Source of the DNA: Prevotella sp.
Lineage (GTDB): Bacteria > Bacteroidota > Bacteroidia > Bacteroidales > Bacteroidaceae
Direction: 5' to 3'
Length of the DNA stretch: 64,000 nucleotides
Assembly: GCA_017412705.1 (NCBI GenBank)
Contig: JAFPWS010000044.1
Span: 1-64,000, forward strand
Under the pieces are notes generated by a model. That model was not told where the DNA came from, did not search any database, and was given only the letters and a program-made list of their open reading frames with translations. Numbering within the stretch: the first letter of the stretch is position 1; every line of letters starts with the position of its first letter. The position numbers and the translations under genes were made by a program. Shown here in pieces: positions 13,576 to 56,091 of the stretch.

Positions 13576-13863
13576 TCAGCCCGTGCGGCGCAGGCGCTTC
13601 AGGTAGTGGGCGGGGTGAGGCCGTTGTACTGCTTGAAGACGGAGTGGAAGTGGGTGCGGCTGGTGCCGCACTGGTCGGCGACGTCCTCGACGGCGTATTC
13701 GGGGCGGGTGGCCATCAGGCGCTCGGTCTCGCGGACGCGCTGGGTGTTTATCCATACGGAGAACGACTCGTAGCCCTGGGCCTTGACCCACCGCAGCAGG
13801 TGCGACTTGGGCACGCCGGCCTGCTGGGCCACGACCTCGCTTTTCAGGTTGTGCTGCAGGTGG
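13576..13863 (-). pseudogene. Broken AraC-family regulator (C-terminal DNA-binding domain, frameshifted)
   Basis: On the minus strand a clear AraC-type double helix-turn-helix can be read: SEVVAQQAGVPKSHLLRWVK, SFSVWINTQRVRETERLM, VEDVADQCGTSRTHFHSVF and KQYNGLTP. The frame then ends PPTT-stop at 13599. Moving by one base at about 13608, in a C-rich run, continues with HYLKRLRRTG and a stop at 13576, which is how such domains end; a one-base frameshift is therefore likely. On the 5' side the homology stops near 13860, where the sequence becomes the end of a nitroreductase on the opposite strand. The sensor or N-terminal part is gone. The 13599-13931 frame is a chance extension. Confidence 0.65.
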
Positions 13864-14012
13864 CCGCCGTCTCTCAGGTGCTCCATCTGCCCCTGGCCAT
13901 CGTTCCCCTCTGTACCATCGTCATCGGCCATCCCGCCGAGAGTCCTGAACCGAAGAACAAGTGGAAGGCAGAGAACGTGTCGTATAACGATTTTGGAGGA
14001 AAAGCTGAATAA
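13864..14012 (+). pseudogene. C-terminal remnant of a nitroreductase-family protein
   Basis: The last 48 codons before the TAA at 14010-14012 read VSQVLHLPLAIVPLCTIVIG, HPAESPEPKNKWKAE and NVSYNDF. This pattern (IGHPAE.PEPK.KW...VSYN) is the conserved C-terminus of FMN-dependent nitroreductases in Bacteroidetes. The frame remains open upstream, but that part is the antisense of the AraC fragment and is not nitroreductase sequence. The N-terminal FMN-binding three quarters are missing. The two remnants meet at about 13862, indicating a deletion or rearrangement junction. Confidence 0.6.
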
Positions 14013-14022
14013 CGAAATGAAT

Positions 14023-14304
14023 CTATCTTATCAAAGCCCCGACCTCCTTATGAGAGTCATGGCGGCTCACCTTGAAGGTGCAGGTCTTCACGTCAGGACG
14101 ATAAGCGCTCGTGCGGGTATCGGAGTGCGAGGTCCGCTTGTCTAACTGGTCAAAGTGCGAAACCTTCTTTTCGTTGTTAATCACCACCACCACCCTGTCG
14201 TTCTTGACATTGTTGTGATGCTTCTTATTACCGGCCATTGCTGGCATTGCAAATGTGACGGCCATTGTCATCATGGCAACTGTCACCTTATTAAACTTCT
14301 TCAT
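14023..14304 (-). CDS. Small secreted basic protein of unknown function
   Basis: A 93-residue protein with a good Sec signal peptide (about 1-24, KVTVAMMTMAVTFAMPAMAG). The mature part is short, basic and rich in His, Lys and Asp, with KKHHNN and a hydrophobic strand DRVVVVINNEKKV, ending CTFKVSRHDSHKE. No known domain is recognised. A -7 element TAATTTTG lies at 14410-14417, giving a leader of about 100 bases. That leader contains a perfect 7-bp hairpin (CTTCGAC/GTCGAAG, 14383-14402). The protein could bind metal through its histidines, but this is a guess. It ends close to the nitroreductase remnant on the other strand. Confidence 0.65.
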   Translation of the reverse strand: MKKFNKVTVAMMTMAVTFAMPAMAGNKKHHNNVKNDRVVVVINNEKKVSHFDQLDKRTSHSDTRTSAYRPDVKTCTFKVSRHDSHKEVGALIR

Positions 14305-14409
14305 AATCTTCTTCTTTTAATTGTTCAACTTATTGTTAATTAATCCCTGCATTATAGCCGCCCCTTATTATTGCGCGCAACACTTCGACCTTTAAGTCGA
14401 AGAACAGGA

Positions 14410-14417
14410 CAAAATTA
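14410..14417 (-). promoter_or_regulatory. -7 promoter element of the small secreted protein gene
   Basis: TAATTTTG on the minus strand, about 105 bases upstream of the start codon. A perfect 7-bp stem-loop at 14383-14402 would lie near the 5' end of the leader. Confidence 0.5.
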
Positions 14418-14468
14418 TCTTCATCGAACTCAAAATTTGTCAACTTACTCAGTACACTACAAATACGA

Positions 14469-14835
14469 AAATCTTGAAATCGTCCTTCATCCTTCACTCT
14501 CGGAGATGTAACTTATTGTAACATAAAGTGTTAAGTAACTTTAAAGGCAAGGTCAATCTTTCACTTTTCTTTCACTTTTCCTTCACTTATCCTTCACTTT
14601 TTGCTTTGATGGCACCTGAAGGGTAGTTACATTACGACTGAGTACCCTTTACTCGGCATGTAACTGGTGCTTTGTCGGCATGTAAATCATGCTTTCTCGG
14701 CATGAAAGTGAAGGATAAGTGAAAGAAAAGTGAAGGATAAATGAAGGATAAATGAAGGATGAAAGATGACTTAAACAATTGTACTACAATATTTTAACCT
14801 AAAAAAGTGAAGGATGAAGGACGATTTTATGATTT
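14469..14835. repeat. Nested inverted repeat built from 11-bp and 22-bp tandem units
   Basis: The outer arms at 14469-14498 and 14806-14835 are inverted copies matching at 28 of 30 positions. Inside them, 11-bp units of the type TTTCACTTTTC / CTTCACTTATC (four copies, 14559-14602) face the reverse-complement type AAAGTGAAGGA / TAAATGAAGGA (five copies, 14705-14759). The centre carries three 22-bp units, each containing CTCGGCATG or GTCGGCATG (14650-14671, 14672-14693, 14694-14715). A partial unit in the opposite orientation lies near 14624-14645. There is no coding sequence. The 22-bp unit recurs at 55982-56091. Confidence 0.85.
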
Positions 14836-15073
14836 CACGTGAAGATTTTTGCTGAGCAGTTTGACAAATTTGAACCCCGATGAAGGCGTTCTTGAGCCGG
14901 GCGGTGACCTGTCGCGAACCGTCCGCAATCTGGCAGCGCCCCGTCCTCTGACGGTCTCCGCCCCGTCCGGACTCCCCTTCCACCCCACCCTGAAACGACC
15001 TTTGGGCTGGAAATCAAATGCTGCTGCACCCGACATTCATCAGATACAGCAGCATCGCATATACTCTTAATCC
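14836..15073. other. Intergenic sequence without a supported gene
   Basis: GC-rich compared with the flanking repeat. Frames of 60-75 codons exist on both strands but have no start signals, motifs or plausible protein composition. I see nothing I can name. Confidence 0.5.
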
Positions 15074-15226
15074 TTATAGCTGAACGGACTCGTCAAAATC
15101 CTCATCTTCCCAGTTATACTTAGGAGCATTCTCCACTTTTGGAGGTTTCGCGGATCCCAGATGCAACAAATTCCATTTCGTCTTGATATTGACAATCTTC
15201 ATCTCGGGCTTGATATATCTCTTCAT
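15074..15226 (-). CDS. 50-residue peptide gene directly behind the C10 protease gene
   Basis: A short gene with an unusually good ribosome-binding site for this phylum: AGGAGGT (15240-15234, minus strand), 7 bases before the ATG. It starts 19 bases after the stop of the C10 peptidase gene, so the two are cotranscribed. The product begins MKRYIKPEMKIVNIKTKW, has a hydrophobic NLLHLGS segment at 19-25, then KPPKVENAPKYNWE and an acidic tail (EDEDFDE). It has no normal signal peptide. The pattern of a short basic start, a Leu-Leu pair, then Gly/Ser and an acidic end resembles small peptides often seen in Prevotella genomes; the function of those is unknown to me. It could be a protease inhibitor, a substrate or a signalling peptide. 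Confidence 0.65.
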   Translation of the reverse strand: MKRYIKPEMKIVNIKTKWNLLHLGSAKPPKVENAPKYNWEDEDFDESVQL

Positions 15227-15245
15227 AGTGTGTACCTCCTCTTGC

Positions 15246-18200
15246 TTATTTAATGATTACCTTCTTACCATTCACAATGTACAGACCCTTTGTGGGCTTG
15301 GCTACGCGCTGACCATTCAGGTTGTAGACACCCTCGCGCTTCAGGTCGATAGCCGAGGGTTTCAGCTCTTCGATTCCCGTCGTACCGCTATTACCAAAGC
15401 TTATGCCTAACGATGTCGCTGTGGCTGCAGTGCTCGTAGCGGCAAAATAAGCGCGGAACGGTTCCACCGTAGCAGTACCTTTCTTAAAGGTATCGCCGTC
15501 GTTGTTCAAAGCATAAATGTTGTCTAACGAGCCCGTATTGGTCATGGTGCCGACAAACTTATAGTTCGATACCGTCACAGCAGCTTTTGCGCCAGCCTTT
15601 ACCGTTACATCATCAGCCGAGAAAGTCAGCGTATTCTTACCATCGCCATCCAACGAGTACGAGCCGTAGTTCGAGCCAGGTATTGCTATAATATAAGGAG
15701 TATTTGCCTTCAGCGGAGTCGATGCAGTGACGAAGTACACTGTCGAGCCGTCCTCGCCACTGAATTCCATCAGCCAGAACTTACGATTAGCTTCATCCCA
15801 AGGCAGATTGCCTGCATTGTTCACCACTGTCGATGCAGCAAACGGCAGCACCACTGTTGTCCAACCCTTACCATCATCGTAGAACTTATCGAAAGTACGA
15901 GTGTAGCTGATCTTCTTCGCTGTGAAGTCAACAGGTGTAGAGAAGGCATAGCCGTCAGTCAGCCCCAGATTATCTATCGCACCGTTTTGCACTACGTTCT
16001 TTCCGCTCAGCGTTGCAGGGGCCGTCTGACTGCTACTGATAATATATAAGGTGTTGGGGTTGCTGTTTGGCGCTACACCTGTGAAATCAAGACCTGTAAG
16101 ATCTACGGCTGCGACATTATCACTGACTGTAATATCATCGCTTTCAACCTTTACCTTCACCACATTTCCTTCATTGTCAATAGCGTTATATCCTCTCACC
16201 AGATTCAGCACATAGCGGCTGTCATCTGGATGACTGCCAACAATCATCTTGATACGGTATTTGCCGTAGTCATAATTTGTGCCGTAGGTCATTGTAGAGA
16301 ACGACAACGTTTCGCCTGCTTTTAACGTGTGGGAAGATGATGATTGCAGAGTTGCCACCGAACTCCACGTGCTGCCATCCCACTTCTCCAGATAGAAGTA
16401 GGGCTGAACACCAGAGTAGTTTGTGCTTGAGATATTCTTGACCACAGGAGCCACCTCGATAGTCTTGGAATAGACGTCAATCTGTATATTACCATCGCCA
16501 TCTACAGTACGGGCCTTGGTATCCTCGTCAGCTACTGTAAGAGACGAGATGATAAACGGTCCATCAGGTGCATGGCTGTTTACCTCTATTGCGACAGTGG
16601 TCTGGCCGATAACGTTAGAAGCAGACTCGTCGGTAGCCACCCAGAGGTTGTAGGTTGCTGCAGCATCGGGAGTCCACTCAAAGGTCAGCGAGGCACTCTT
16701 GTTTTTCTGTACCGTCACGCCACCCTTGTTGACCGCCGAGCCCTTCGACTCGCTGGTGCTGGCAAAGAGGTAGAGCACACCATAGAACTCGCCACCGGTA
16801 TTCGATATCGTAACCTCTACTGGCTGAACCTCGTCTTTATACTTGGTACCCGCAAAATTCCATGCTGTCACGCTGAGATTGCTTGCTAAAGGATATTCCG
16901 TGAGCGTAGGATTGCCTTCAGCGTCGTACTCTACAAGAATGTATTTCAACGCCGTATTATAGGTAGTAGCCCACTTCGTTTCTGAAGAAAGCTTGCTGAT
17001 GGGAACCACCTTGATAGATGTATTGGCCTTGGTCTCGTCCTTGACGAAGGTGTAGGTCATATTGTGTTGACCTTGGTTCTCTTCCAAAATGCAATTGGTT
17101 TGAAAAGTATGGAGCAGCGACAAGTCACCTGCGCCATCTACCGTACCAATACCGACATCAAAGGTATTAGTACTACCAGTCCAGTTGAAAGCCGACAATT
17201 TCACCGATGTCCCATCAATGACAAAACTATATATACCTATGGTCACTGGTGTGGGTTCGACAGTCTCGCCAGATCCAATCTGAATACCAATAACGGCATC
17301 CTGATCATAGCTATAGCCGTCGTTGCTGGTACTGGCACCAATACCGCTATTGTCATTAGGGTTCATGACTGACAACGCAAAATAATTGTCGCAAGAGCCA
17401 CCCCAACCCCAATTGACATGGAACATCTCGTCGCCGTCATAACCATCAACTACAAAGGCATGACCGCCACCTGACGACTGACCACCATAGAGCACGGGAC
17501 GCTCTGCCGCTAACTCGTCATACATCAGTTCGGTCCATGATGACAAATCGTAATTAGAGCGACTAATAAATCGTGTAGTTTGGTCATAGTCAAAATACTT
17601 AATCAAGGCTGGAGCCACATTACTCGTGTAGGCACCTGAGCCACCATTATCCGAATTGGCATAGTCCATTTGGACTGAAGCGCCACAAATCTGCATCAGC
17701 GTAGCTACGGCTGTTTGTTGTTCCGTTGTCGGAGAGCCCGTTTTATAGTCAGCCAGCATGTTGTCCCAATCGAGGGTGGTGACAGGAATAGCGTCTACCG
17801 AAATCTTGCCTAAGCCAGACCAGTTTCTCTCACACTGATATGCTTCTGTAGCCACCAAAGTCTGAGCAGGCTGCTTGCCGGCTTTCATTGAAGCATAATA
17901 CACTACCTGTGCCATAGCCGTGGCCACACAGCCTGTCACACACTTGCCATAGGTAAAGAAATCAGGGCACTTCTGATTATATGGGTCACCTTGATTCCAT
18001 GTAGTCTGTACCAGCGGGGCAATAGCCGCCTTAACGCCCGAAGCTCTGCGCGAGGCAGAAACTGTGGGCTGATAGCCGATGGCTTTCAGATGTTTCATCT
18101 CGTCGACATAGCCTTGCAGCCAGGCACGCATATTGTCGGGCATTTGGGTACTATCGAAGGTTCCGCTATTGCTGTAGCCAAGCACCTCGCGGAAGCGGTC

Positions 18201-18452
18201 GTCACCACTGACAATCACAAAACCATCCTCTTCACCCTGTGTGACGGCATAGAGATAAGGCTGACCTGACTTGTCAACGGCATTCAGCACCACCTCGGCC
18301 TTCAACTGCTCTGCCGACAGAGCTCTGTGATTCACACCCTTGCCCATCAGAAACTGAGAGGCAATCTGCTGTGCCTGTTCCTTCGTCACCGGCCCTGCAA
18401 ACAACACCGATGCCACGAGGAAACACGCTGATAATAGTAGCATTCTTTTCAT
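15246..18452 (-). CDS. C10-family cysteine peptidase (streptopain-like), multidomain secreted
   Basis: Secreted protease of 1068 residues. The signal peptide is residues 1-19 and the inhibitory propeptide about 21-140 (KEQAQQIASQFLMGKG, GFVIVSGDDRFREVLGYS). The catalytic domain is about 141-395, with Cys175 in CVTGCVATAMAQVVYY, His331 in GGGHAFVVDGYDG, and the NWGWGG loop. The remaining 670 residues are beta-rich domains. The protein ends YNLNGQRVAKPTKGLYIVNG plus KKVIIK, a short C-terminal sorting tail of the kind linked to type IX secretion. The longer frame to 18515 lacks a signal peptide, and the promoter at 18486-18493 lies inside that extension, so the start is the ATG at 18452. A 50-residue peptide gene follows. 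The arabinan locus lies upstream but is probably a separate unit. Confidence 0.9.
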   Translation of the reverse strand: MKRMLLLSACFLVASVLFAGPVTKEQAQQIASQFLMGKGVNHRALSAEQLKAEVVLNAVDKSGQPYLYAVTQGEEDGFVIVSGDDRFREVLGYSNSGTFDSTQMPDNMRAWLQGYVDEMKHLKAIGYQPTVSASRRASGVKAAIAPLVQTTWNQGDPYNQKCPDFFTYGKCVTGCVATAMAQVVYYASMKAGKQPAQTLVATEAYQCERNWSGLGKISVDAIPVTTLDWDNMLADYKTGSPTTEQQTAVATLMQICGASVQMDYANSDNGGSGAYTSNVAPALIKYFDYDQTTRFISRSNYDLSSWTELMYDELAAERPVLYGGQSSGGGHAFVVDGYDGDEMFHVNWGWGGSCDNYFALSVMNPNDNSGIGASTSNDGYSYDQDAVIGIQIGSGETVEPTPVTIGIYSFVIDGTSVKLSAFNWTGSTNTFDVGIGTVDGAGDLSLLHTFQTNCILEENQGQHNMTYTFVKDETKANTSIKVVPISKLSSETKWATTYNTALKYILVEYDAEGNPTLTEYPLASNLSVTAWNFAGTKYKDEVQPVEVTISNTGGEFYGVLYLFASTSESKGSAVNKGGVTVQKNKSASLTFEWTPDAAATYNLWVATDESASNVIGQTTVAIEVNSHAPDGPFIISSLTVADEDTKARTVDGDGNIQIDVYSKTIEVAPVVKNISSTNYSGVQPYFYLEKWDGSTWSSVATLQSSSSHTLKAGETLSFSTMTYGTNYDYGKYRIKMIVGSHPDDSRYVLNLVRGYNAIDNEGNVVKVKVESDDITVSDNVAAVDLTGLDFTGVAPNSNPNTLYIISSSQTAPATLSGKNVVQNGAIDNLGLTDGYAFSTPVDFTAKKISYTRTFDKFYDDGKGWTTVVLPFAASTVVNNAGNLPWDEANRKFWLMEFSGEDGSTVYFVTASTPLKANTPYIIAIPGSNYGSYSLDGDGKNTLTFSADDVTVKAGAKAAVTVSNYKFVGTMTNTGSLDNIYALNNDGDTFKKGTATVEPFRAYFAATSTAATATSLGISFGNSGTTGIEELKPSAIDLKREGVYNLNGQRVAKPTKGLYIVNGKKVIIK

Positions 18453-18485
18453 AATATCTATCTCTGTTTTAGGTTTATTCCGATG

Positions 18486-18493
18486 CAAAGATA
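18486..18493 (-). promoter_or_regulatory. -7 promoter element of the C10 peptidase gene
   Basis: TATCTTTG on the minus strand, 33 bases upstream of the ATG at 18452; it decides that start over the upstream one. Confidence 0.6.
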
Positions 18494-18560
18494 GTATAAA
18501 TCGAGCGGAATACACGATTTTAATTGTTAATCTAATTAAATTCTTCTGAATCTCTATTAC

Positions 18561-55963: not shown

Positions 55964-56091
55964 GTGCTCACATTACAAGTGAGCACCAGTTACATACCGA
56001 CAAAGCAGGGGTTTCCTACCGACAAACTGATAGTTACATGCCGACAAACTACAAGTTACATGCCGAGAAACTACAAGTTGCATCACCGGGG
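55964..56091. repeat. Five tandem 22-bp repeats with a leading hairpin
   Basis: Units of exactly 22 bp run without spacers: 55982-56003, 56004-56025, 56026-56047, 56048-56069 and 56070-56091. The best-kept unit is ACTACAAGTTACATGCCGAG plus AA; units 1 and 3 differ at a few positions, and units 2 and 5 are more decayed. A perfect 8-bp hairpin GTGCTCAC/GTGAGCAC (55964-55986) borders the array. The last unit overlaps the stop codon of the DUF1573 gene. The same unit, inverted, occurs at 14650-14715. Confidence 0.85.

Follow-up and report, generated by a model that had tools for sequence, protein, structure and literature searches.

Positions 14467-14968 of the window, the 64,000-nucleotide stretch of Prevotella DNA analyzed here, hold one copy of an interspersed repeat of about 502 bp, composed of a palindromic core followed by a G+C-rich tail. 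The repeat is real, multi-copy and more ordered than usual, and it is most likely a non-autonomous mobile repeat. Its copies are many and lie among unrelated neighbors, they share a sharp left edge, derivatives have lost the core, and a similar layout recurs. We consider it probable that the repeat is a MITE-like element of the BrickBuilt kind, that is, a giant imperfect palindrome of 11- and 22-bp minisatellite units joined to a G+C-rich tail. An earlier note on this DNA had listed a non-autonomous mobile repeat among several options, and that option is supported by eight dispersed copies in the same genome and seven in a second one, with differing neighbors; the possibility, also raised there, that the region is a unique stretch with no second copy proved false.

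The features of the window copy are collected in Table 1. Its core, center included, is almost wholly self-inverted (68% over 377 columns). The outer arms, the inner arms, the 11-bp units and the three central 22-bp units were confirmed at the positions first described for them, with inner arms that are 94% complementary over 33 nt (14556-14588 with 14706-14738). TRF reports 3.8 copies of an 11-bp unit at 14560-14601, 5.0 copies of an 11-bp unit at 14706-14760 and 2.6 copies of a 22-bp unit at 14647-14704. The joint phasing of these units, originally claimed for 14650-14759, is unbroken over 14649-14759, with unit starts at 14649, 14671, 14693, 14704, 14715, 14726, 14737 and 14748; it is not kept across the left arm, where the step from 14579 to 14649 is 70 bp. 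Motifs of the CATTACGA type, similar to the one in the left half of the center, border some other 22-bp arrays, and a weaker trace of the possible extra outer arm can be seen by eye to the left of the copy on contig C44. The palindrome had been described as free of genes, and no ORF of at least 80 aa overlaps 14305-15245; a mechanical ORF of 73 aa starts at 14849, in the tail of the window copy, and some of the other copies have overlapping mechanical ORFs, of 72-123 aa. Of the neighbors that had been proposed, an AraC-type remnant (13599-13931, minus strand) and a C10 protease gene (15246-18515, minus strand) are borne out by Pfam, and the second proposed remnant (13857-14012) has no Pfam match.

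Table 1. Features of the repeat copy in the window, and a separate array of the same unit family
Feature	Position	Strand	Evidence
Palindromic core, 385 bp	14467-14851	.	Copies aligned (same genome and RGIG1062); sharp left edge GAAAATC; self-inverted; MFE z -12.6
Left outer arm	14469-14498	+	30 nt, 93% complementary to 14806-14835; in each of the 14 aligned copies with a left end
Left spacer, AT-rich	14499-14555	+	Position between tiers in alignment
Left inner arm, about four 11-bp units (TTCACTTTTCC)	14556-14601	+	TRF, 3.8 copies; 14556-14600 and 14705-14749 89% complementary (45 nt)
Center, left half, with CATTACGACTGAG	14602-14648	+	Within self-inverted match
Center, three 22-bp units with TCGGCATG	14649-14710	+	Spacing 22, 22
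Right inner arm, five 11-bp units (AAGTGAAGGAT), phased with 22-bp units	14704-14760	+	TRF, spacing
Right spacer, AT-rich	14761-14805	+	Alignment
Right outer arm	14806-14835	+	Complementarity to left outer arm
G+C-rich tail, GCCCCGTCC type, 22-bp phased	14852-14968	+	3' of core in 15 of 15 aligned copies; also found without core
Possible extra outer arm	14419-14452	+	76% complementary to 14852-14885; clear in window copy only
Separate array of the same 22-bp unit family; inverted arms looked for, none found	55968-56083	-	TRF, unit search

The search of other Prevotella genomes that the earlier note proposed revealed dispersed copies, and aligning them gave a sharp left edge and an uncertain right one. 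Within the genome of the window, a DNA search in which 40 of 60 candidates were scored found eight copies, on contigs C52 (the window), C13, C55, C53, C44, C34, C88 and C66; the other seven match the window copy at 83-94% identity, and that on C66 is cut by the contig end and is without the left end. Seven copies are present in Prevotella sp. RGIG1062 (G119), which comes from dairy cattle reticulum. Among 398 congeneric genomes, the genome of the window included, some match at E 0.001 or better was found in 33, with scoring of the top two candidates from each genome, and on the same basis more than short pieces occurred in two of the 398, the genome of the window and RGIG1062, with at most short pieces in the other 396. 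In a collection of 84,980 species, represented by one genome each and possibly omitting records near the genome of the window, seven records contained the core motif, every one of them from RGIG1062. Plasmid and phage collections held no match to 14460-14985, and viral contigs held none to the 22-bp unit pattern. In a further genome (G374) 26 bp match the left end; this match was set aside, as no palindrome was seen there.

The copies in the genome of the window lie between longer ORFs, with those on C55 and C66 at contig ends. The adjacent genes are divergent at C53 and C34 and co-directional at C52, C13, C44 and C88; a location between convergent genes was considered and rejected, as none was seen. 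Small toxin-antitoxin-type genes after C34 and C53 aside, the neighbors look unrelated to one another, and the eight stretches contain no tRNA genes that might serve as integration sites. The left flank is common to both genomes for three insertions (C13/g61, C88/g126 and C44/g14) and differs for the remainder, and the right flanks differ between the genomes for at least C13/g61 and C44/g14. From their sequences we take the flanking genes to encode PurD beside copy C44 and TsaB beside copy C53, and we assigned the name BspA in the same way. Eight further congeneric loci of the putative purD gene, left of C44, align only to about the gene start or 51 bp beyond it and have no element there. Beside the putative tsaB gene, RGIG1062 has a 22-bp array instead of the copy, and two other genomes show neither. 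The relatives' neighborhoods of C44, C53 and the window copy yielded no filled and empty pair with both flanks intact. Two side observations concern these surroundings. The loci of C53 and C34 (L031 and L033) share approximately 250 bp beyond the element, with different toxin-antitoxin-type genes between, an arrangement that looks like swapped gene cassettes. Elsewhere, 921 bp are identical between the two genomes (L034:7100-8020 and G119 C126:45317-46237), whereas the adjoining region of the element matches at only 83% and is found 13 kb off in RGIG1062, which suggests recent exchange or duplication.

The two edges of the repeat are not equally well defined. Where the left edge is present, in 14 copies, it falls at the same (G/T/C)AAAA, and the DNA before it differs from copy to copy and is often T-rich. 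On the right side, all 15 aligned copies continue past the palindrome into the G+C-rich tail, the shared sequence ending at GCCCCGTCC (window position 14968) in C13 and C55 and extending 60-90 bp further in C34, C53 and C44, so that the right edge of the repeat is not firmly fixed. Among 14 copies no target-site duplication of at least 4 bp was found, whereas mismatched pairs of flanks showed one in 5% of cases; the result carries little weight, since the shared sequence passes the presumed right edge in several copies, and the right-edge motif was matched with two to three mismatches in C88, g86 and g126. The right extension in C34 and C53 contains what we take to be a resemblance to the Bacteroidetes promoter consensus. 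A scan for sigma-70 sites gave one site against 1.3 in shuffles, and a terminator scan gave none. Located 3' of the extension are small genes, a nucleotidyltransferase at one copy and a DUF4160 and DUF2442 pair at the other, both sets over the Pfam cut-off; the former matches an MntA-antitoxin model and the latter a DhiT-toxin model, each below cut-off. Two copies thus placed end in promoter-like sequence before toxin-antitoxin-type genes.

Parts of the repeat also occur apart from the whole. In one derivative (C73:69417) the left outer arm is joined to the right end, in another (C53:33463) the tail stands alone and the core is lost, and a derivative in RGIG1062 retains part (half) of the center with the tail; one copy of that genome, g14, has three additional 11-bp units. 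With 40 of 53 candidates scored, the 22-bp unit has 51 matches in the genome of the window, counted as 40 places, eight of which are core copies. Its arrays, viewed at 22 loci, are of single and of mixed orientation, and the unit sequence varies widely. The tail module has 21 matches in the same genome, seven of them with a core, and occurs at ten places outside the copies in RGIG1062. Because the 22-bp unit and the tail exist as separate dispersed modules, the repeat is a composite of dispersed minisatellites.

This modular mixing, in which tails and 22-bp arrays occur alone, is also what would be expected if there were no transposing unit, and if minisatellites had grown by slippage and hairpin template switching and had been spread by recombination between intergenic repeats. 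The variable length of the right ends, the lack of visible target duplications and the finding of the same left flanks with different right flanks all fit such a history. The left edge and the order of the modules, however, are constant in 14 copies at many unrelated sites, for which slippage alone is insufficient, and we regard this explanation as unlikely.

A classical MITE, derived from a DDE insertion sequence with terminal inverted repeats, is somewhat harder still to sustain, although it overlaps in part with the mobile repeat that we favor. The ends of the core are inverted, and BrickBuilt of Porphyromonas gingivalis has been tied to IS5-type ends (PMC4596501). Against this stand the 14 copies without target duplication, read with an uncertain right edge, and the continuation of every aligned copy beyond the inverted end into the tail. 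Moreover, a DNA search that covered 40 of 60 candidates in the genome of the window and two candidates in each of the 398 congeneric genomes found no insertion sequence, or other autonomous element, with these ends. The uncertainty of the right edge raised our estimate for a DDE-type MITE and slightly lowered that for the mobile repeat.

If the repeat is a mobile element, its copies would have been made in trans, through an enzyme whose gene lies elsewhere. The substrate would be the hairpin of a single-stranded form, for example on the lagging strand, and the tandem units might then grow and shrink by slippage. As the enzyme we tentatively favor a RAYT/IS200-like tyrosine transposase, given the lack of visible target duplications and the position of two such genes beside parts of the element; we infer the movement of a single-stranded hairpin from these two neighboring genes. 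The first is the RAYT-like gene of g59 in RGIG1062 (L065:759-1670, minus strand, on G119 C59), whose ATG follows the tail by approximately 30 bp and whose product carries a DHLH motif. The second, in the genome of the window (L215:177-1316, minus strand, on C18), lies approximately 0.2 kb downstream of a tail-type array and encodes a relative 41% identical to the first product, with a DHIH motif. Both are of a divergent type and fall below the cut-off of the model for REP-associated tyrosine transposases (NF047646, NCBIfam), with scores of 39.5 and 35.6 against 80 bits, and an E value of 4.7e-10 for the L065 product. The two genes lie in loci that had been selected for their repeats, so that their adjacency is not an unbiased count.

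A Pfam search found four Y1_Tnp genes over cut-off, one in the genome of the window and three in RGIG1062 (L242, L243, L244 and L245); it missed both RAYT-like neighbors and is therefore not a full census. Neither core nor tail was present in the loci of these four genes, one of which matches the promoter-like extension over 22 bp, and viral contigs held no confirmed relative of the RAYT-like protein. By their motifs three of the four (NHVH, YIHQNP) fit Bacteroidetes RAYT subclass 2.6, the fourth nearly does (NHFH), and the two neighbors (DHLH, DHIH) do not. Inspection by eye shows GGAACCGTCCCC-like repeats close to the edges of several of the four, and these may form a repeat family of their own.

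The palindrome could instead be kept for the sake of a transcript. Folded as RNA, 14467-14851 reaches -148.3 kcal/mol against a shuffle mean of -81.3 (z -12.6, 0 of 100 shuffles as good), and the minus strand (z -14.2) and the DNA (z -12.7) give similar values. All lie far beyond chance, although the fold score restates the palindrome and is by itself no demonstration of function. We examined covariation in 14 copies (C66 left out) at 72 named pairs. Standard pairs occupy 92.7% of the cells. Two-sided changes affect 11 of the 72 pairs against 8.1 in shuffles (reached by 14 of 500) and 32 cells against 15.6 (0 of 500), and the covariation score is 0.105 against 0.072 (0 of 500), with slid registers giving 0-5 pairs; further pair types equal the shuffled mean (252 of 500). 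Overall, arms match better when both come from one copy than when they come from different copies (0.8995 versus 0.8657; 2 of 5000 permutations), but within each of the two subfamilies they match no better (0.9276 versus 0.9276, and 0.8715 versus 0.8696; 2190 of 5000 permutations). Over all pairs, G-U (27 cells in 10 pairs) and A-C (25 cells in 8 pairs) are about equal. The pair at columns 88-318, which hardly forms, contributes 11 A-C cells, and without it the counts are 27 G-U to 14 A-C, an excess that leans weakly toward the plus strand.

We read these data as one old, partly coordinated divergence, compatible with correction between DNA arms or with weak selection on the hairpin, and do not take them to prove that the RNA is functional. 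A long hairpin RNA had been one of the roles first suggested for the region, and of that suggestion the conserved pairing and the modest surplus of two-sided changes stand, whereas arm matching within subfamilies, the strand evidence and Rfam lend it little. The Rfam search of 13900-15300 returned ten matches up to E 5, all below gathering score, the best being microRNA precursors that match the long hairpin. A hairpin transcribed intergenically as a regulator or as a processing or stability element, its structure kept, would account for the very strong fold on both strands, for the pairing and covariation above shuffles and for the lean to the plus strand. It accords less well with own-copy arms that fit no better than cross-copy arms within subfamilies, with the near equality of G-U and A-C over all pairs, and with copies that lie between divergent and co-directional genes alike and have no terminator-like site, and we hold it to be very doubtful.

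Least probable is a putative array of binding sites for a nucleoid, partition or regulatory protein, spaced at one and two helical turns, since the exact 11/22-bp phase over 14649-14759 and the 22-bp units at 32 genome places besides the eight core copies must be set against copies that act as single units of 0.5 kb, constant at the left edge and set among unrelated neighbors, and against a unit that varies widely in arrays of both single and mixed orientation.

A similar layout recurs in two further families. Family B is represented by three loci in the genome of the window (C16, C76 and C73:50450; L091, L090 and L093). Its outer arms consist of ACACTTCTTAC-type units and, beyond an AT-rich spacer, its inner arms of ACCTGACACTT-type units; the center is made of the 22-bp units of the repeat described above (family A). 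The inverted arms measure 93-119 nt at 72-74%, and the fold z values are -5.2, -6.4 and -8.6 (40 shuffles each). Family C is a single locus in genome G373; its arms of 123 nt, at 73%, contain AAGTGAAGG-type units like those of family A, and its z is -12.9. Its center holds a self-inverted 21-mer in two copies 66 bp apart (92% over 26 nt), and no second full copy was found in that genome. We rejected the idea that the three families are unrelated in sequence, since the 22-bp unit of family A recurs in family B and its AAGTGAAGG-type unit in family C. They have unit kinds and plan in common, not their whole sequence, and may be diverged relatives. Of 29 loci gathered from other genomes, 27 were self-compared and inspected over a short stretch, and RGIG1062 apart, the two-tier layout was seen in one of the 27 (that of G373), others holding plain arrays or single palindromes. 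Plain short-period minisatellites of the GTGAAAGAT or TTTCATCTTT type were observed near gene borders in other Prevotella genomes (L010, L012, L039, L043 and L050), and at one locus of genome G065 (L055, around 1501-1620) a 107-bp, 88% palindrome of GATGAAAGATGAAAAGTG-type units stands apparently directly after a gene end.

It is conceivable, though quite unlikely, that the three families form a Prevotella element class that keeps its plan (two inverted tiers, 11- to 12-bp units and a 22-bp-phased center) while much of the sequence turns over, their members being giant REPIN-like substrates of divergent RAYT enzymes in which the hairpin keeps its own arms matched. The recurring two-tier plan is what makes the repeat of interest, the mechanism being a matter of inference. 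Were the layout indeed kept while sequence turns over, bacterial mobile DNA would offer here a testable example of selection at the level of structure, or of correction between arms, and the repeat would be a candidate substrate for the poorly understood RAYT-like enzymes of Bacteroidetes. More generally, dispersed repeats with minisatellites inside palindromes break assemblies, seed rearrangements and may bring promoters.

A literature search among open-licence papers found no description of this element. In its size, in being non-coding at the level of ORFs of at least 80 aa (window copy) and in its many dispersed copies it resembles a MITE. IS200/IS605-related PATE elements move by means of hairpins and without target duplication, and their hairpins are short and subterminal, whereas here the whole core is one palindrome. 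Like REP/REPIN sequences with their RAYT (TnpA-REP), the repeat is palindromic, intergenic and multi-copy, and RAYT-like genes stand beside two sites of element parts (PMC6006769, PMC3733652). Bacteroidetes RAYT subclass 2.6 is described as flanked by 'atypical secondary structures' (PMC6006769). Unlike REPs, given there as 20-40 bp, the repeat has a 385-bp core that starts with GAAAATC and, by inspection, has no GT[AG]G foot at its left end; also unlike the REP/RAYT pairing, the two RAYT-like neighbors fall short of the family cut-off, and the four Y1_Tnp genes that pass the Pfam cut-off show no association with it.

The closest comparison is with BrickBuilt, an intergenic 23-nt minisatellite with leader and tail that has 19 copies in P. 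gingivalis and predicted long stem-loops, and that is described as confined to P. gingivalis and P. gulae (PMC4596501). IS5-type ends such as GAGACCTTTGCA, promoter activity, and target duplications for three of four intact copies are also reported for it (PMC4596501). Both elements are dispersed intergenic minisatellite composites with flanking segments (19 copies there, eight here), both are restricted to close relatives and have predicted long stem-loops, and the modular loss of leader or tail in BrickBuilt has its counterpart in the loss of parts here. The promoter activity of BrickBuilt may be compared with the promoter-like sequence in the longer tails of C34 and C53. The BrickBuilt unit is of 23 nt and without spacers, whereas the units here are of 11 and 22 bp and form two inverted tiers around a center; the ends here, by inspection GAAAATC and GCCCCGTCC, are not of the GAGACC type or GAGACCTTTGCA, which sets the repeat apart from BrickBuilt as described; and target duplications were not seen. 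Because unit length, nested inverted design and ends differ, we do not file the repeat as BrickBuilt, as a canonical MITE or as a REPIN; it belongs to the composite mobile-repeat kind, with a sequence and a nested design of its own.
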